From Saprospiraceae bacterium (GTDB lineage: Bacteria > Bacteroidota > Bacteroidia > Chitinophagales > Saprospiraceae): a stretch of DNA of 46,587 nucleotides. The notes beneath the pieces were generated by a model. That model was not told the DNA's origin, searched no databases, and was given only the letters and a program-made list of their open reading frames with translations. The stretch is taken from the NCBI GenBank assembly GCA_016787285.1, contig JAEUUV010000141.1:1-46587 (forward strand), given 5' to 3'. A program made the translations under genes and the position numbers. Below are positions 18,573 to 46,587 of this stretch, piece by piece. The first letter of the stretch is position 1; each line of letters begins with the position of its first letter.

Positions 18573-18579
18573 TTTTTTG

Positions 18580-18783
18580 TTGACTGGTTGACTGGTTGAC
18601 TGGTTGACTGGTTGACTGGTTGATTGGTTGATTGGTTGATTGGTTGATTGGTTGATTGGTTGATTGGTTGATTGGTTGATTGGTTGATTGGTTGATTGGT
18701 TGAGGTTAGATGCCGCATCTAAGAACTTTCTTCGATGTAGACTGTCCAATCAACCAATCAACCAGTCAACCAGCCAACCAGTC
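18580..18783. repeat. 8-bp minisatellite (15 units) with mirrored inverted arm, in the asd leader
   Basis: 18580-18699 is 5 copies of TTGACTGG followed by 10 of TTGATTGG. About 46 nt further, 18746-18783 carries the reverse complement of the same series, including the switch from the ATT to the ACT variant. 37 of 38 bases can pair with the ACT/ATT end of the array. In the asd transcript this gives a near-perfect 38-bp stem whose 3' arm ends about 13 nt before the ATG, with register slippage possible. Confidence 0.9.
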
Positions 18784-18862: not shown

Positions 18863-19528
18863 ATGGACATGTTTATTCGCTTTCACAAGGAAGGTTTTGC
18901 GATACTGATCGCGGTGGGGCTTTTCCTGTTGTTGCTCAACGTGGCGCTGCGTTTGCTCGGCTCGCTGTACTTCTGGCCGGTTCTGGTGCTTTCGTTGATT
19001 ATTTACGGCCTGGTGGCGCAGTTCTTCCGGAACCCGGTGCGCGTGATTCCGGTTAAGGACAACCAACTCGTATATGCTCCGGCAGATGGCCGGATTTGCG
19101 TGATCGAGGAGGTGTACGAAGGGGAATATTTCAAGGACAAACGCCTGCAGGTGTCCATCTTCATGTCGCCGCTCAATGTGCATGTGAACCGTAATCCTGT
19201 AAGTGGCCTGGTGCGTTACTTCCGCTACCATCCTGGCAAATACCTGGTGGCCTGGCACCCCAAAAGCAGTACCGAAAACGAACGCACCACCGTGGTGTAC
19301 GACACCGGCGCCGGGCAAATTCTGATGCGCCAGATTGCCGGCGCCGTAGCCAAACGTATCAAATGGTACGTCAAGGAAGGCGATCAGGTCGAACAGGGCG
19401 CCGATATGGGCTTTATCAAATTCGGCTCCCGTGTGGATCTTTTCCTGCCCATCAACACCAAAATCGAGGTGGCCATGGACCAACAGGTGCGCGGAAACCT
19501 CGACGTGATCGCCAAATTTTCTAATTGA
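18863..19528 (+). CDS. psd: Phosphatidylserine decarboxylase-family protein
   Basis: About 221 residues. Two membrane helices lie near the N terminus (IAVGLFLLLLNVALRLL and FWPVLVLSLIIYGLV). The body is the short Psd type: FFRNPVRVIP, YAPADGRICVIEE, VSIFMSPLNVHVNRNPVSG, and the self-cleavage site with Gly-Ser in IKFGSRVDLF. Processing at the Ser gives the pyruvoyl cofactor that decarboxylates phosphatidylserine to phosphatidylethanolamine at the inner membrane. The longest frame starts with TTG at 18827; I chose ATG 18863 because homologues begin right before the FIRFHKEGF motif. It is flanked by two minisatellites, and its TGA falls in a repeat-like AATTGATCCGATT. Confidence 0.9.
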   Translation: MDMFIRFHKEGFAILIAVGLFLLLLNVALRLLGSLYFWPVLVLSLIIYGLVAQFFRNPVRVIPVKDNQLVYAPADGRICVIEEVYEGEYFKDKRLQVSIFMSPLNVHVNRNPVSGLVRYFRYHPGKYLVAWHPKSSTENERTTVVYDTGAGQILMRQIAGAVAKRIKWYVKEGDQVEQGADMGFIKFGSRVDLFLPINTKIEVAMDQQVRGNLDVIAKFSN

Positions 19529-19720
19529 TCCGATTAGGCCGATTGATTCGATTGCCAAACTGATGCTGTCGTAGTCACGCTCGGTAATCGAATCAATCGA
19601 ATCAATCGAATCAATCGAATCAATCGGCCCAATCGGCCCAATCGAATCAATCGAACCAATCGGCCTAATCGAACCAATCGAACCAATCGAACCAATCGGC
19701 CTAATCGAACCAATCGAATC
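19527..19720. repeat. 9-bp minisatellite (15 units) with inverted flank, in the lysS leader
   Basis: 19586-19720 consists of 15 consecutive 9-mers of the form AATCGAATC, with variants AATCGGCCC, AATCGGCCT and AATCGAACC. The last unit ends 8 nt before the lysS ATG. The segment 19527-19553, directly at the psd stop, is the reverse complement of AATCGAATCAATCGGCCT-type units, so the leader can form hairpins. Same 9-mer as the array after the nucleoside phosphorylase gene, read on the other strand. Confidence 0.9.
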
Positions 19721-19728
19721 AATAAAAA

Positions 19729-22500
19729 ATGACGGAACAAGAAATTTTGCGCCGGGAGGCGCTCCAAAAATTACGCGAACTCGGCATTGACCCCTACCCT
19801 GCCGAGATGTTCGACGTGACGGCTTTCGCCGCCGATATTCTGGAAAACTACCAGGAAGAAGTGCTGGAGGACGGCAGCAAAAACCGCCTGAACTACCAGG
19901 AAGTAGCTCTGGCCGGACGCGTAATGGCCTCGCGCGAGGCAGGCAAGGCGCTGTTTATGAACCTGCAGGACAGCAGCGGACGCATCCAGTTGTACCTCCG
20001 CCGCGATGACTTTGCGCAAGGCGAGGACTTCACCTTTTTCGATACGGCCATCAAAAAACTGCTCGATCTGGGCGACTACATCGGCGTGCGCGGTTTTGCC
20101 TTCAAAACCAAAACCGGTGAAGTGTCGGTGCATGTGCGGGAACTGAAATTTTTGGCCAAAAGCCTGCGCCCGCTGCCCATCGTGAAGCGCGACGCCGAGG
20201 GACATATCTACGATGCGTTCACCGACCCCGAACAGCGCTACCGCATGCGCTATGTGGACCTGACGGTGAACCCCGAGTTCCGCCGCATTTTCATCAAACG
20301 CAGTAAAATGATCCGCACCATGCGGAATTATCTGGACGAACTGGGCCTGCTCGAAGTGGAGACACCCATCCTGCAGCCCATCCACGGCGGCGCGGCGGCA
20401 CGCCCGTTCACGACACACCATAATACGCTGGACATGAAACTGTACCTGCGTATTGCCAATGAATTGTACCTCAAACGTCTGATTGTGGCCGGTTTCGACG
20501 GCGTGTACGAGTTTGCCAAAATGTTCCGAAACGAAGGCATGGACCGCACGCACAACCCGGAGTTCACCGCGCTGGAGTTTTATGTGGCCTACAAAGACTA
20601 CAACTGGATGATGGACGTGACCGAGCGGATGCTCGAACGCGTGGCCCGCGCCCTGAGCGACGACGGCAACGCCACGGTTACCTTCGGCGGGCACACCCTC
20701 GATTTCGCCGGGCCGTACACCCGCCTGACCATGTTCGACGCCATTCGCCAGTATACCGGCCTGAACGTGGAAACCGCCGACGAGTCCGAACTGCGCGCCT
20801 ACTGCCGCCGGGAACACATCGAACTGGATGCCAGCATGGGCAAGGCCAAACTGATTGACGAAATTTTCGGAGAAAAGGTGGAGAAACACCTGATTCAGCC
20901 CACGTTCCTGATTGACTACCCGGTGGAAATGTCGCCGCTGACAAAAAAACACCGCAGCAAGCCGGGCCTTGTGGAGCGCTTCGAACTGTTCGTGAACGGC
21001 AAGGAGGTGGCCAACGCCTACTCCGAACTCAACGACCCGCTCGACCAGCGCGAACGCTTCGAAGATCAACTCCGCCTCGCTGCCCGCGGCGACGAGGAGG
21101 CTATGGCCATGGACGAGGACTTCCTGCGCGCACTCGAGTACGGCATGCCGCCCACAGGCGGTATCGGCTTCGGCATTGACCGGCTGGCCATGCTGTTTAC
21201 CGGCCAGTCGAGCATTCAGGAAGTGCTGTTTTTCCCGCAGATGAAATTAGAATCCGGCAGCGAAAAGACAAATTTCGAAACCACTGACAAAACTAACTCA
21301 GGCATTGTAAACGAATTTATGGGCCAAGGTTTTGATCCGGGTGCCGACAAATCTGTAGGTAACTTTTTGATTAGCAATTTAAAAAGCGAAAAGTTTCACT
21401 CTTTTACCTGGTTTTCTGCTTTTGCCAGCGAACGTGCAATTAGTGGGCTGTCCCCCTACATCATGGAAGCAAAAACTCATTTTCGCGATATGAAAATTGT
21501 TGTTGGTGTGGATCAAGAAGTAACAACCCGAGAAGCACTGCAAACGATTTTGGCATTAAACATACCTGCATATATATTTTTTCAACCGTCACCGCGATCC
21601 ATTTTTCACCCAAAAATTTATTTGTTTGAGGGAGATGAGATATCGGAAGTGGTCATCGGCTCCTCTAATTTAACTCTGCAAGGTCTTTTCTCTAATGTTG
21701 AAGCATCCATGCTCTTCAAAAACGAAAACAAATCGAAGCCAGAGTCAGATGTGATTATGCAATTGAGAGGCTACTTCAAGCGCATTTTTGACGGAACCGA
21801 TCCCAATCTCAAAACGCTTACGCCAGAATTAATTGAAGAGTTGGTTCAAAGACGTATTGTACCTTTAGAATCGGAAAGACAAGCTGAACAAGAGAAAAAG
21901 GATGGTGTAGAGGATGGGAAAAAAGAAACGGTCACACCTCCTTCGTTCCCAAAGCGCGGTTTGTCTCCTGTGCCTGCGGGCTTTATAGTAAAAGGCAAAC
22001 CATCTGCGATCACTATTGATACAGAAACTTCGAAAATAGTAGTACCCGAGGTGATTGGCTTGAGAAAGCTGGTTTGGAGCAAAAATAAAATGACGGCTTC
22101 AGATGCACAACAAGCAAAGCCCGGAACAAACCTTACTGGTGGATTGAGGTTGGTGCAGAGTGGATTCAAAGTTGAAGACAAGGTAATTGACCAAACTACA
22201 TATTTCCGCCATGATCTCTTTGGCACCTTCGAGTGGGTGCAAGTAAGTACAGAACCATTTGTAGAGCGTGCTTTAGTGCCATTTTATCTTGTTATAAACG
22301 GACAAATGATTGGAAGATTCGATTTTCAGATTCGTCACAAGCCCAGTGGAGAGGCCTCCCAAGGCAACTATACAACCCTAATATCCTGGGGACAACTGGG
22401 AAATATGATTCGAGACTCCAATTTAAAGGGAGCAAAACTTGATCTATATGCGCCATTGGAAGAAGGTGCACCGTTTTCGATCGTCATTTCTCAGAAGTAA
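19729..22500 (+). CDS. lysS: Lysyl-tRNA synthetase fused in frame to a PLD-type restriction endonuclease
   Basis: 923 residues without an internal stop. Residues 1-~505 are a complete class II LysRS: OB-fold anticodon domain ([19 protein letters not shown]), motif 2 region ([22 protein letters not shown]) and motif 3 ([20 protein letters not shown]), ending normally at EVLFFPQM. Residues ~531-923 are a PLD-superfamily nuclease with one H627-x-K629 ... GSSN647 motif and a C-terminal B3-like DNA-binding region ([14 protein letters not shown]...[10 protein letters not shown]). This matches NgoFVII-like restriction enzymes. Base composition drops at the junction: 38 G/C of 60 at 21001-21060 and 23 of 60 at 21541-21600. 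The methyltransferase gene follows. Either a true chimera is made, or the nuclease starts internally (ATG 21241 or 21319). LysRS itself looks fully functional. Confidence 0.9.
21319..22500 (+). other. Restriction-endonuclease module with candidate internal start
   Basis: The ATG at 21319 (residue 531 of the fused frame) would give a 393-residue nuclease of normal length for the family, which suggests a complete enzyme gene was joined to lysS rather than a fragment. Another ATG is at 21241, where the LysRS ending and the AT-rich sequence meet. Neither has a strong Shine-Dalgarno sequence, as is usual in Bacteroidota. PLD-type restriction enzymes act without metal ions, usually as dimers with one HxK motif per subunit, and this module has one. 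Confidence 0.6.
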
Positions 22501-22571
22501 CCCATACGAAATTGCCCTTGGGTTTCATGCCCTTCGAGCAGTTTGCGTAAAAACTTTTTGTTTTTAATTGG

Positions 22572-22602
22572 TTGTTTTTACACAAAATCAACCCTATTTT
22601 TG
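22572..22602 (+). promoter_or_regulatory. Promoter of the DNA methyltransferase gene (TTG-N20-TATTTTTG)
   Basis: TTG at 22572-22574 and TATTTTTG at 22595-22602 are 20 nt apart. The ATG follows 50 nt later. AAATCAAC at 22585-22592 in the spacer and GTTGATTT at 22647-22654 across the start codon form an 8-bp dyad, which might be a regulatory site. It lets the methyltransferase be made independently of lysS. Confidence 0.75.
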
Positions 22603-22652
22603 GCACTTTATTTTGAATTTTTCATAGTGTATCAAAAAACTTGTGTTGATTT

Positions 22653-24266
22653 ATGAAATTGATCACAGAAACCTCTTCTGAAAAACTTAGGGGCGGGTAT
22701 TATACCCCAGAACCAATCGCTGACTTCATTTTGCGTTGGGGCATCAATGGAGACAAAAACCTGGATATTCTTGAGCCTAGCTGTGGAGACGGGGTCTTTT
22801 TAAGGCAAATGCTTCAACTTGGATTACCCTACAATTCTGTAACTGGCATCGAACTAGATCCTGAAGAAGCAGAAAAATCGGACTCAATTGAGTTAGGCAA
22901 CAAGCAAATCATCAACGACGATTTTCACACCTATTGCAACAACACACACCGAAGGTTTGATCTGATTATAGGCAACCCTCCCTACATTCGTTACCAGTTT
23001 TTTGATACGCAACAACAAGTTTCTGCCGAAGATATTTTTATCAAGGCCGGCCTGAAATATTCCAAATTGGCCAATGCATGGGTATCATTTGTGGTAGGCT
23101 CTGCTTTGTTGTTGAAAGATCACGGCGGCAAGATGGGTTTTGTGCTTCCCGCTGAAATTTTGCAAGTATCTTATGCAAAGCAACTTAGAGCATTTCTTGC
23201 ACGCTCTTTTAACAAAATAAATATTATCTCATTCAAAAAACTGGTGTTCTCGGACATTCAGCAAGAGGTTGTTTTGTTGCTCTGCGAACGCGATGGGACA
23301 CAAAAACATGCTATTGACCATGTTGAACTAATGGATGCTAAAGACTTGGAAAACTTGGATCTAAACAAATTGAAATGCCCTCGCAAGCGACTTGATTTCA
23401 ATTCCAACAAATGGACTTTTTATTTTTTGGAGCAGCATGAAATTGATTTTTTAGAAAACATTGCCCAACAATATAACATTCCGAACATTGGAAAATATGC
23501 CAATATAGAAGTTGGAATTACTACCGGCTCGAATAATTTTTTTTCCGTGCCGCTATCGGTTGTGGAACAATACAAACTCGAACGCTACGCAAAACCACTT
23601 GTAGGAAGGAGTGTCCAAGTAAGCAGCGCTATTTTTAATCATGCCGATTGGCTCCAAAATAAGAACTCGTCGGCCAAAGCGCACTTGCTTGTCTTTCCAG
23701 AAAAAACTCTCCTTGAAGGAGAAAAAGGGGCGTTGACTTACATTGCCCTTGGAGAAAGCGTTGGAATACATCATGGGTACAAATGCGGTATTCGTAACGA
23801 CTGGTTCATGGTTCCCTCTTTGAAGATATCTGATGCGTTGTTTATTAGGCGCAACAACTTGTTTCCCCGTCTTATTGTAAATGAGGCGAGAGCATTTACG
23901 ACGGATACCATGCACCGTGTTTTTGCAAAACCCGGTACTGATGTAAATGCTCTTACCGCTAGCTATTACAATTCACTCTCACTTGCCATGACTGAGGTGT
24001 GTGGACGCAGCCACGGCGGCGGAGTCCTAGAACTTATGCCAAGTGAGGCTGAACGAGTGTTATTGCCATATCATTTTGACAACTCTCATCTTATCAATGA
24101 AATAGACAGGCGTTTTCGAGAAAATCAGAGCATTGAAGATATCCTACTGTTTACCAACAAAGTGCTCTTGAAGGAACAATACGGCTTGTCTCTTGAAGAG
24201 ATTCGTCTTGCTCATTCTATATGGAGGAAATTATCATCCCGTAGGTTGAATCGAGGAAGGGTGTGA
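22653..24266 (+). CDS. N6-adenine DNA methyltransferase (gamma class), type II RM partner
   Basis: 537 residues. Motif order X-I-IV is typical of gamma-class adenine methyltransferases: RGGYYTPEPIADFIL (residues 13-27), SAM-binding ILEPSCGDGVFL (39-50) and catalytic N108-P-P-Y111 in LIIGNPPYIRYQF. The C-terminal half, from about residue 250, resembles a TaqI-type target-recognition domain. It should methylate adenine in the sequence cut by the upstream PLD nuclease and so protect the host. It lies 152 nt after that nuclease in the same direction and has its own promoter. A+T-rich base use (22 G/C of 60 at 23221-23280) differs from the flanking genes, a sign of transfer. The recognition sequence cannot be deduced. 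Confidence 0.92.
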   Translation: MKLITETSSEKLRGGYYTPEPIADFILRWGINGDKNLDILEPSCGDGVFLRQMLQLGLPYNSVTGIELDPEEAEKSDSIELGNKQIINDDFHTYCNNTHRRFDLIIGNPPYIRYQFFDTQQQVSAEDIFIKAGLKYSKLANAWVSFVVGSALLLKDHGGKMGFVLPAEILQVSYAKQLRAFLARSFNKINIISFKKLVFSDIQQEVVLLLCERDGTQKHAIDHVELMDAKDLENLDLNKLKCPRKRLDFNSNKWTFYFLEQHEIDFLENIAQQYNIPNIGKYANIEVGITTGSNNFFSVPLSVVEQYKLERYAKPLVGRSVQVSSAIFNHADWLQNKNSSAKAHLLVFPEKTLLEGEKGALTYIALGESVGIHHGYKCGIRNDWFMVPSLKISDALFIRRNNLFPRLIVNEARAFTTDTMHRVFAKPGTDVNALTASYYNSLSLAMTEVCGRSHGGGVLELMPSEAERVLLPYHFDNSHLINEIDRRFRENQSIEDILLFTNKVLLKEQYGLSLEEIRLAHSIWRKLSSRRLNRGRV

Positions 24267-24370
24267 TTTGATCCTTACTTACGGCAATACGGCTTCCTTC
24301 ACTCGTTTCGAACGTGCGAGCGCTTCGAAGCCCCGCTCCGGCTGGTATGCCTCCGAAATACCCCCCTCCC

Positions 24371-25648
24371 TCAAATCCCCATCCACAACCGCATCGGGTC
24401 CTCAATCAACTCCTTCACTTTCACCAAGAACGTCACCGACGTGGAGCCGTCAATGACGCGGTGGTCGTAGCTCAGCGCGAGGTACATCATCGGGCGGATT
24501 TCCACCTGACCGTTCACAGCTACGGGGCGTTCCTTGATGGCGTGCATGCCGAGGATGGCGCTTTGCGGTTCGTTGATGATGGGCGTGCTCATCAGGCTGC
24601 CGAATATGCCGCCGTTGGTGATGGTAAAGGTGCCGCCGCTCATTTCGTCGAGCGACAGTTTGCCGTCGCGGGCTTTGGCGGCGAGGTCTTTGAGTTTGTA
24701 CTCGATCTCGTGGTAGTCCAGACTTTCCACGTTGCGGATGGGCGGCACCACCAGTCCGGTGGGTGTGCTGATGGCGATGCTGATGTCGGCAAAATCGTGG
24801 TACACGATGTCGTCGCCGTCGAGGCGGGCGTTCACGTCGGGCATTTCGAGCAGTATCTGGGCGCAGGCTTTGGCGAAGATGGACATGAAGCCCAACTTGA
24901 TGCCATGTTTTTTCACAAACGCCTCCTGGTATTTTTCCCGCAGGGCCATCACCGCGCTCATGTCCACCTCGTTGAACGTGGTGAGCATGGCCGTGTTGTT
25001 TTTGGCGCTCACCAGGCGTTTGGCGATGGTGCGGCGCATACGGGAAAGGCGCTCGCGGCGCTCGTTTCGAGAGTTTTGAGTTTCGCCCACCTTTGCCGAG
25101 GCTTCGGCGGGTGAAAGTTTTGAGTTTTGAGTTGGGGCGGCGGGGGCCGGGGCGGTTGGTGTGGGAGCGGGGGCCGGTGCCGCCGCTTTGTTTTCCACGG
25201 CTTTTTGTGCGTCGTCCTTGGTGATGCGCCCGTCTTTGCCGGTGCCGGCCACGTCGGCGGGTTGCACGCCGCCTTCTGCGAGAATTTTGGAGGCAGCCGG
25301 AGAAGGATGGCCGGTAGCGTAATTGGCCGAGGCCGGCGCTTCTGCGGGTTTTTCCACCGCTGCCGGGGCTGCCGGTGCGGGGGCCGGCACAGCGGTACTG
25401 CTGGCGGCTGCTTCCGTATCAATTTTGGCAAACAAGGCGCCCACGGCCAGGTCTTCGCCTTCTTTGGCCACCCAGATCAGTTTGCCCGCCTTGTCGGCGG
25501 AAAGTTCCTGGTTGGCTTTTTCCGTTTCAATTTCACAGAGCGGCTCGTCCATTTCCACGGTGCTGCCGTCGGGTTTCAGCCATTTGGAAAAGGTGACGTT
25601 GGTTATGGATTCTCCCAGATTCGGGATACGAAGTTCGATGACAGGCAT
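24371..25648 (-). CDS. odhB: 2-oxoglutarate dehydrogenase E2, dihydrolipoyllysine succinyltransferase
   Basis: 425 residues. Lipoyl domain at 1-77 with the lipoylated lysine in [19 protein letters not shown], an Ala/Pro linker, an E1/E3-binding domain (~112-150, [12 protein letters not shown] and [10 protein letters not shown]), a second linker, and the catalytic domain ending with the active-site [10 protein letters not shown]. It transfers the succinyl group to CoA in the TCA cycle. The start [14 protein letters not shown] favours the OdhB type over pyruvate E2. The second linker contains translated TTTTGAG-type repeats (TQNSKLS and TQNSRN), a sign of repeat insertion. It ends ~105 nt from the inserted RM system. 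E1 and E3 are not nearby. Confidence 0.93.
25116..25133. repeat. TTTTGAG heptamer repeat inside the odhB linker
   Basis: Two tandem copies of TTTTGAG followed by TT, with another single copy at 25072-25078. They encode TQNSK-type residues in the flexible linker, where an insertion would be tolerated. Confidence 0.65.
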
Positions 25649-33656: not shown

Positions 33657-34475
33657 ATGGAACTTTACGATCAAATTCAGGAAGCCGTCGCTGCCGTTCG
33701 CGCCCGCACCGATTTCGCGCCCCGCACGGGCATCATCCTCGGCACCGGCCTCGGCAACCTGGCCGACGAGGTACAGGCTGTCGCCGAAATCCCGTACACC
33801 GAACTGCCGCATTTCGCCCACAGTACCGTGCAAAGCCACCGCGGAAAATTTGTCTTCGGCCACCTGGAAGATCACCCCGTAGTGGTGATGGCCGGGCGGC
33901 TGCACTACTACGAGGGCTGGACCATGCAGCAGGTCACGTTTCCCGTGCGGGTGCTGAAGGCACTGGGCATTGAGCGGCTCATTATCACAAACGCTTCCGG
34001 CGGCATCAATCCGCACCTGCGCGGCGGCGACATCGTGGTAGTGCGCGACCACATCAACCTGCTGCCCGAGCACCCCCTGCGCGGCCCCAACGACGAGCGC
34101 CTCGGCCCGCGTTTCCCGGATATGTCCCAAACCTACGACGCCGGCCTGCGGGGCAAGGCTCTGGCTGCCGCCAAAAAATACGGCATCCGCGCCTTCGAGG
34201 GCGTGTATTCCGCCATGCAAGGCCCCAACCTCGAAACCCCCGCCGAATACGTCATGCTGCGAAACCTCGGCAGTGACTGCACCGGCATGTCGTCGGTACC
34301 CGAGGTGCTGGTAGCGCGGCACCAGAACTTGCCGGTGCTCATGCTGTCCATGGTGACCAACGTGTCGTTTCCGCCCAGCGCCATCCGCGAAACCTCGGTA
34401 GAGGACGTGATCGCCGTGGCCCGTGGAGCGGAACCGAACTTGAGCCGGATGATTAGAGGAATATTATTCGATTGA
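33657..34475 (+). CDS. Purine nucleoside phosphorylase (trimeric, PNP/MTAP family)
   Basis: 272 residues. Phosphate-binding GIILGTGLGNLADEV, SHRGKFVFG and AGRLHYYEGW; purine-binding NASGGIN, FEGVYSAMQGPNLETPAEYVMLRNLGSDCTGMSSVPE and the late SMVTN. It splits purine nucleosides into base and ribose-1-phosphate in the cytoplasm for salvage. It follows the BASS transporter with a 2-nt gap. The last codons (Phe-Asp-stop) lie inside the first unit of a 9-bp minisatellite, so the C terminus has been rewritten by the repeat. Confidence 0.95.
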   Translation: MELYDQIQEAVAAVRARTDFAPRTGIILGTGLGNLADEVQAVAEIPYTELPHFAHSTVQSHRGKFVFGHLEDHPVVVMAGRLHYYEGWTMQQVTFPVRVLKALGIERLIITNASGGINPHLRGGDIVVVRDHINLLPEHPLRGPNDERLGPRFPDMSQTYDAGLRGKALAAAKKYGIRAFEGVYSAMQGPNLETPAEYVMLRNLGSDCTGMSSVPEVLVARHQNLPVLMLSMVTNVSFPPSAIRETSVEDVIAVARGAEPNLSRMIRGILFD

Positions 34476-34582
34476 TTCGATTGATTCGATTGATTCGATT
34501 GATTCGATTGATTCGATTGATTCGATTGATTCGATTGATTCGATTGATTCGATTGATTCGATTGATTCGATTGATTCGATTT
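34466..34582. repeat. 9-bp minisatellite, 13 units of ATTCGATTG, at the end of the PNP gene
   Basis: Twelve exact ATTCGATTG units plus a final ATTCGATTT. The first unit overlaps the last codons and provides the stop codon of the phosphorylase. The unit is the reverse complement, in another register, of the AATCGAATC unit upstream of lysS. No variant units are present, so the array is young or recently homogenised. Confidence 0.95.

Positions 34583-46440: not shown

Positions 46441-46587
<147 letters not shown>

Follow-up and report, generated by a model that had tools for sequence, protein, structure and literature searches.

A lysyl-tRNA synthetase (LysRS) gene that continues without a stop codon into a complete restriction enzyme was found in a 46,587-nucleotide stretch of DNA from a Saprospiraceae bacterium. 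This stretch, called the window throughout, corresponds to contig C86 of a 5.56-Mb genome, G000, which is 96.65% complete and assembled in 345 contigs. Positions 19729-22500 form one open frame of 923 codons that comprises a complete class II LysRS, a linker, and a complete restriction enzyme with a PLD-nuclease and a B3-like domain, and a gene for an adenine-specific DNA methyltransferase follows. From the comparisons described below, we consider it probable that a Type II PLD/B3 restriction-modification (RM) cassette has become fused to the 3' end of lysS and that its product is a bifunctional LysRS-restriction enzyme expressed from lysS. The features, all on the forward strand, are:

19729..21252 (+), LysRS part of the fusion: residues 1-508, through MKLE (MRPE of relatives); NF001756 and TIGR00499
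21253..21318 (+), linker: residues 509-530, 22 residues (23 in genome G052); low model confidence
21304..21924 (+), PLD nuclease domain: about residues 526-732; PLDc_2, profile and fold matches, conserved motifs
21607-21615 and 21658-21669 (+), nuclease motifs HxK and GSSN, respectively: conserved in alignment
22042..22497 (+), B3-like putative DNA-recognition domain, C-terminal: separate model with B3 fold matches; stop codon at 22498-22500
22571..22602 (+), promoter-like site before the methyltransferase gene: GTTG, 20 nt, TATTTTTG; pattern scan
22653..24266 (+), adenine-specific DNA methyltransferase of the M.Eco57I kind, 537 aa: PF22837, PF07669, PF02384; PADLOC MTase_II

The initial annotation, made from the sequence alone, had described an in-frame LysRS-PLD fusion with a B3-like region and an adjacent adenine methyltransferase. 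The observation of a LysRS-restriction enzyme fusion is confirmed: the frame is open throughout, both halves have profile matches, the model of the C-terminal domain has B3 fold matches, and the frame at 22653-24266 matches M_Eco57I_C and Eco57I.

The two halves of the fusion

The NCBIfam lysine--tRNA ligase model NF001756 covers residues 3-507 with a score of 679.8 bits (cut-off 468), and TIGR00499 covers residues 4-506 with 603.1 bits (cut-off 427.6), so that by curated cut-offs the N-terminal half is a full-length class II LysRS. G000 and G052, the latter a different species of the same genus that is described below, each yielded exactly one class II LysRS over the cut-off, and in each case it is the fusion. 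No class I LysRS exceeded its cut-off in either genome; G000 had one sub-threshold match (21.6 of 27 bits). No second LysRS that could stand in for the fusion was therefore found in G000 or G052, at completeness values (96.65% and 88%) that allow for a missed second copy. As the sole LysRS found, the N-terminal half would, on this gene content, have to charge tRNA-Lys. Its evolution also appears ordinary, with terminal branches of 0.061 and 0.041 for the fused pair against a median of 0.059.

In the C-terminal half, residues 598-685 match PLDc_2 over the cut-off, RE_NgoFVII scored below it (19.7 of 23.8 bits), and there were profile matches to SauUSI, BfiI and R.NgoVII. Fold matches of the modelled tail support a PLD fold, in a comparison that tests mostly tail residues 14-208. 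H627 and K629 are invariant in an alignment of 43 relatives, and the GSSN motif at residues 644-647 is invariant or at least 90% conserved. The C-terminal domain, modelled separately with a mean predicted local distance difference test (pLDDT) score of 91.8, has B3 domains as its best fold matches, including that of BfiI. The tail thus has the layout of BfiI-kind enzymes, a PLD fold carrying HxK and GSSN with a B3-like domain C-terminal to it. The linker, which is absent from free-standing nuclease relatives, had mean pLDDT scores of 44 and 47 in the first two 10-residue blocks of a model beginning at residue 505. Between the window and G052, the nuclease shows nonsynonymous divergence (dN) of 0.39 versus synonymous divergence (dS) of 1.76, a dN/dS of about 0.22 with dS near saturation. 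This purifying selection, together with the conserved motifs, argues that the nuclease still acts.

The adjacent methyltransferase and base composition

The methyltransferase has a PADLOC MTase_II match of 637 bits over its whole length and is of the kind expected beside the nuclease of a Type II RM system; the same pairing is present in G052 and in 47 of 83 other nuclease loci. Only 152 nt (22501-22652) separate it from the nuclease, the gap in G052 is shorter still, and neither gap contains a helix-turn-helix (HTH) gene. The promoter-like site in the window gap has one mismatch in its upstream element relative to the Bacteroidota promoter consensus, and a similar site (TTTG, 20 nt, TATTTTTG) lies in the same gap of G052. 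Judging from these sites, the methyltransferase probably has its own promoter.

The drop in G+C content at the junction that the initial annotation had pointed out is real: lysS has a value of 0.58, the nuclease and methyltransferase genes drop to 0.42, and 24250-24749 is at 0.58 again. The nuclease regions stand at 0.42 (window) and 0.41 (G052) beside flanks of about 0.55 and 0.48, and the methyltransferase genes at 0.42 and 0.37, respectively. Such low values are in line with a horizontal arrival of the cassette. They also fit the annotation's further claim that the RM genes are newly acquired, but this claim survives only in part, because about 46% of the residues differ between the two fused nucleases, so that the fused lineage is not young.

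A second fusion and the unoccupied site

When the nuclease part was searched in 42 genomes of the genus, matches (E up to 0.001) were obtained in seven: the window, G052, free-standing nucleases in G044 and G005, and three distant ones. The open frame in G052 has 995 codons; its LysRS, with 84.5% identity to that of the window across 504 residues of the latter, ends in MRPE and is followed by the 23-residue linker and a nuclease 54% identical to that of the window; a methyltransferase 74% identical to the window's comes next. The same arrangement of LysRS-nuclease fusion and methyltransferase therefore exists in another genome, the lack of which the initial annotation had named as a refutation. 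Elsewhere in the genus the gene is conventional. LysRS was matched in 39 of the 42 genomes, with frames over 900 codons only in G000 and G052 and the next longest at 608; among 30 LysRS 3' ends that were read, two are fused, 27 stop within 10 residues of the methionine of FFPQM, and one runs off its contig.

The gene order in G052 is amidase, hisA, lysS-nuclease, methyltransferase, membrane protein and further genes. In the unfused genome G010, on a contig too short to reach hisA, lysS ends in MRPEA-stop and a relative of the G052 membrane-protein gene lies directly next to it. Homology between the two extends on the left through the MRPE codons and resumes on the right roughly 15 nt short of where the next gene starts, and these limits imply that the cassette replaces the last LysRS residue, the stop codon and most of the spacer. 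No duplicated target was seen at the cassette edges in this alignment. G056, also unfused, provides a looser unoccupied site than G010: it has amidase and hisA upstream of lysS as in G052 (a context shared by unfused G020) and G052's further genes from 2 kb downstream, and it is without the membrane-protein gene. In the window, lysS lies behind asd and psd, as in the unfused genomes G022, G047 and G040. An acyltransferase gene (24371-25648) stands to the right of the window cassette and is found in G047 on the lysS contig, in the same relative orientation and 30.6 kb away; with both window flanks on one G047 contig, the two belong to one neighbourhood.

These flanks bear on whether the join is an artefact. 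Both genomes are draft assemblies of many contigs, the G+C content shifts at the join, and artefacts do occur, as a 118-nt poly-G at the contig end illustrates. Nevertheless, given the diverged second instance in another species and the synteny with relatives on both sides, including asd-psd-lysS and the acyltransferase gene on a single G047 contig, an assembly chimera or sequencing error joining lysS to an unrelated restriction cassette is hardly credible, and it was set aside.

As a separate matter, the comparison of window positions 21253-24370 with G047 contig C13, positions 3629-34260, shows that G047 carries some 30.6 kb of different DNA where the window has the cassette, so that a large gain or loss separates the two genomes at this place. 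This lysS-acyltransferase interval of G047 gave no DNA match with the window.

Free-standing relatives of the nuclease

The 83 nuclease loci scanned comprise 80 from a search of genome contigs and three that apparently repeat three of those 80. All are free-standing, and lysS was near the nuclease in none of the 83, 74 of which have at least 1.5 kb of upstream sequence. A methyltransferase is close by in 47, and 43 of these have an HTH gene downstream of the nuclease. Free nucleases are 376-413 residues long (50 measured) and mostly start with MxIxxLGQG, whereas the fused forms have neither this start nor the HTH gene. The nearest other nuclease to the fused pair, L102, is free-standing and likewise without an HTH gene. 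At L036 (1486-2784, genome G404), which looks like the same locus as L102, an in-frame stop separates the PLD part of the nuclease from its C-terminal part. A second cassette layout was seen outside the Bacteroidota (L097, L098, L100, L105-L107, L110 and L115-L118), in which the methyltransferase is only distantly related (33-36% identical) and its gene is oriented opposite to that of the nuclease.

No fusion besides that in G052 was detected among nuclease matches in 398 family, 396 order and 395 class genomes, samples that overlap, or in 14 genomes of the G404 genus, nor among 80 loci retained from the 302 relatives that genome contigs gave; a first contig scan with the window nuclease alone had found no relative. 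Some weak family matches, not inspected one at a time, sit in frames of 876-1149 codons, and LysRS frames are of ordinary length in five such genomes (G085, G089, G342, G372 and G018). In a family scan for LysRS itself (328 genomes, 288 with a match, G052 being outside the table), only G000 exceeded 658 codons among the matches listed. IMG/VR yielded one free-standing nuclease relative, 36% identical, and no LysRS was found there; plasmids gave nine distant nuclease matches, none covering 80% of the query. A family search with eight other window proteins concerned the surroundings only.

Origin of the fusion

The two fused nucleases are sisters (support 100/98), as are the two methyltransferases (support 98, quick method). 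The two fused LysRS are not: the starred branches of their tree force two changes, and the approximately unbiased (AU) test rejects their union (p 0.0086). Sister nucleases and methyltransferases beside non-sister LysRS mean that the fused state follows the cassette, which has probably moved between lysS loci. Simple vertical inheritance within the genus was rejected, as the LysRS data do not admit the pair as a clade and the lysS neighbourhoods differ. The sister relationships, the linkers of 22 and 23 residues and the shared attachment codon speak for one fusion that later moved rather than for two independent fusions.

The vehicle of such a move may be visible at the end of lysS. When the gene was scanned in 60-nt segments at 15-nt steps, the terminal segments were the only ones in which the fused pair are mutual best matches (0.90-0.92), against an overall identity of 75.2% at which they rank 23 and 16 of 29. 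Far pairs are mutually best in 0.65% of comparisons (182/28,179). We take this as a hint that a short lysS tail, the last 60-75 nt, travels with the cassette. Speaking against such a tract, G006-G021 and G047-G005, also far pairs, are mutually best in the terminal 60 nt, and when the final 90 nt are compared G000 matches G053 best, not G052. A deletion route to the fusion is possible in view of the 30-kb difference from G047; gene fusions via deletions are described in a 2026 preprint (PMC12803068).

A more specific proposal, which we put forward only tentatively, is that this cassette lineage has specialised on the lysS 3' end, with the nuclease replacing the last residue and stop codon, movement occurring via recombination in the last 60-75 nt, and the nuclease frame becoming inseparable from an essential gene. 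Such a cassette would enforce addiction through gene fusion instead of post-segregational killing, and the level or pairing of the nuclease might be tied to LysRS synthesis and dimerisation.

Proposed function of the fused protein

In the reading that we prefer, the nuclease would have lost the start codon and HTH gene typical of its free relatives. It would be made in one chain of about 100 kDa with the only LysRS found, the LysRS forming the N-terminal and the nuclease the C-terminal half. A flexible linker would let both halves fold. The LysRS half would charge tRNA, and the B3-like domain would select the site to be cut by the PLD pair in DNA that is unmethylated. Protection of the host would come from the methyltransferase, which is probably expressed from a promoter of its own. 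Bacterial LysRS is a dimer and the BfiI-type PLD active site is formed from two chains; a LysRS dimer would thus be compatible with nuclease pairing, may help it, and might fit the nuclease dimer. LysRS is listed among the dimeric enzymes of the metazoan complex in a passage of PMC4394549, and passages of PMC4081073 and PMC10388346 describe metal-independent, site-specific cutting by a BfiI homodimer.

Because the nuclease frame continues that of lysS, the nuclease level would follow lysS. C proteins can delay and tune the nuclease, according to a passage of PMC3874152. The HTH protein of the free cassettes presumably acts as a C protein, and the corresponding layout, with an HTH gene between nuclease and methyltransferase, is absent from the window. 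Loss of this gene suggests that the nuclease level is now set by lysS. Upstream stop codons or frameshifts that silence the nuclease would also hit LysRS. The idea in the initial annotation that the fusion prevents loss of the nuclease or places it under lysS control fits the sole LysRS and the lost start codon and regulator; one-chain translation, restriction activity and stabilisation against loss are what we infer from these sequence features.

Several observations weigh against this reading. The fused frame is known from only two genomes, both drafts of many contigs. The fused nucleases have branches of 0.69 and 0.42 versus a median of 0.34 and the accompanying methyltransferases have branches of 0.43 and 0.23 versus 0.11, lengths that would fit partial decay or changed specificity. 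In the window, ATG 21319 lies exactly at the nuclease border, where the GQGF core of free relatives begins, and a separate nuclease could start there. Lastly, the -7 promoter motif is absent before the window lysS too (19501-19740), which leaves the motif test with little power.

The nuclease could accordingly be made mostly as a separate protein, by internal initiation at ATG 21319 or ATGs at the lysS end or by cleavage within the linker, which is modelled as disordered and hence a possible cleavage site; the open frame would then be a by-product of a tight join. We regard this as unlikely, since G052 has GTT at the nuclease border and, past the ATG that closes its lysS, a linker free of in-frame ATG, GTG and TTG codons, both lysS genes are without a stop, and the linkers of 22 and 23 residues are what one would expect if length matters. 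A pattern scan, which is a weak test, also found no -7 motif in the lysS 3' end of the window or G052.

The longer branches, the absent regulator gene and the restriction of the fusion to two of the 42 genus genomes searched could instead indicate a tail that has decayed or changed and no longer restricts, a harmless LysRS extension beside a methyltransferase kept for other reasons. The conserved catalytic motifs, the dN/dS of about 0.22 (dS near saturation) and a full-length open nuclease frame in two species differing at about 46% of its residues make an inert tail quite improbable.

Relation to known systems

The nuclease resembles BfiI, BmrI, R.NgoAVII and the SauUSI nuclease domain in that an HxK-bearing PLD catalytic domain precedes a B3-like domain at the C-terminus. 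However, BfiI-type enzymes are described as stand-alone and SauUSI and NgoAVII as working with a helicase or ATPase, whereas the nuclease here is the tail of a LysRS. Also close are the free Bacteroidota nuclease-HTH-methyltransferase cassettes (for example L062, L086, L029 and L030), with nucleases up to 49% and methyltransferases about 62-74% identical; unlike the fused cassette, these possess a separate start codon for the nuclease and, in most cases, an HTH gene. A synthetase sharing its chain with a second enzyme or domain has precedent in mycobacterial-type LysX, in which the partner is N-terminal. LysX is a lysylphosphatidylglycerol synthetase joined to LysRS (NF002821), and the MetRS of Mycoplasma penetrans is a similar case; these N-terminal partners serve lipid lysylation or amino-acid supply, and neither is a nuclease.

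Among the titles and abstract openings listed in literature searches, in one case 15 of 64 records, there was no relevant description of a synthetase-restriction or synthetase-nuclease fusion, which agrees, within those listings, with the initial annotation's claim that a LysRS with a nuclease tail is undescribed. Synthetase gene fusions are called common in a 2026 abstract (PMC13215547); in the main text of that paper, no words start with nuclease, restriction, lysyl or LysRS. The parts are thus already known, and it is their union with an essential synthetase that is the new element. Gain and loss of RM systems are frequent, and according to one idea these systems are maintained because cells that lose them are killed. 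A nuclease sharing its reading frame with an essential synthetase would offer a natural example of a costly gene protected through an indispensable one. It also raises the questions of whether a tail that cuts DNA is compatible with a housekeeping enzyme and what keeps a restriction enzyme safe when the regulator gene of its relatives is missing.

Other features of the window

The poly-G at the contig end is a run of 118 G at 46470-46587 and is probably a sequencing or assembly artefact. The window also contains arrays of 8-9-nt units in or near intergenic sequence: GTTGATTG repeated 15.6 times at 18579-18703, AATCGAACC repeated 15.3 times at 19586-19723 directly before lysS, and ATTCGATTG repeated 12.9 times without mismatch at 34466-34581.

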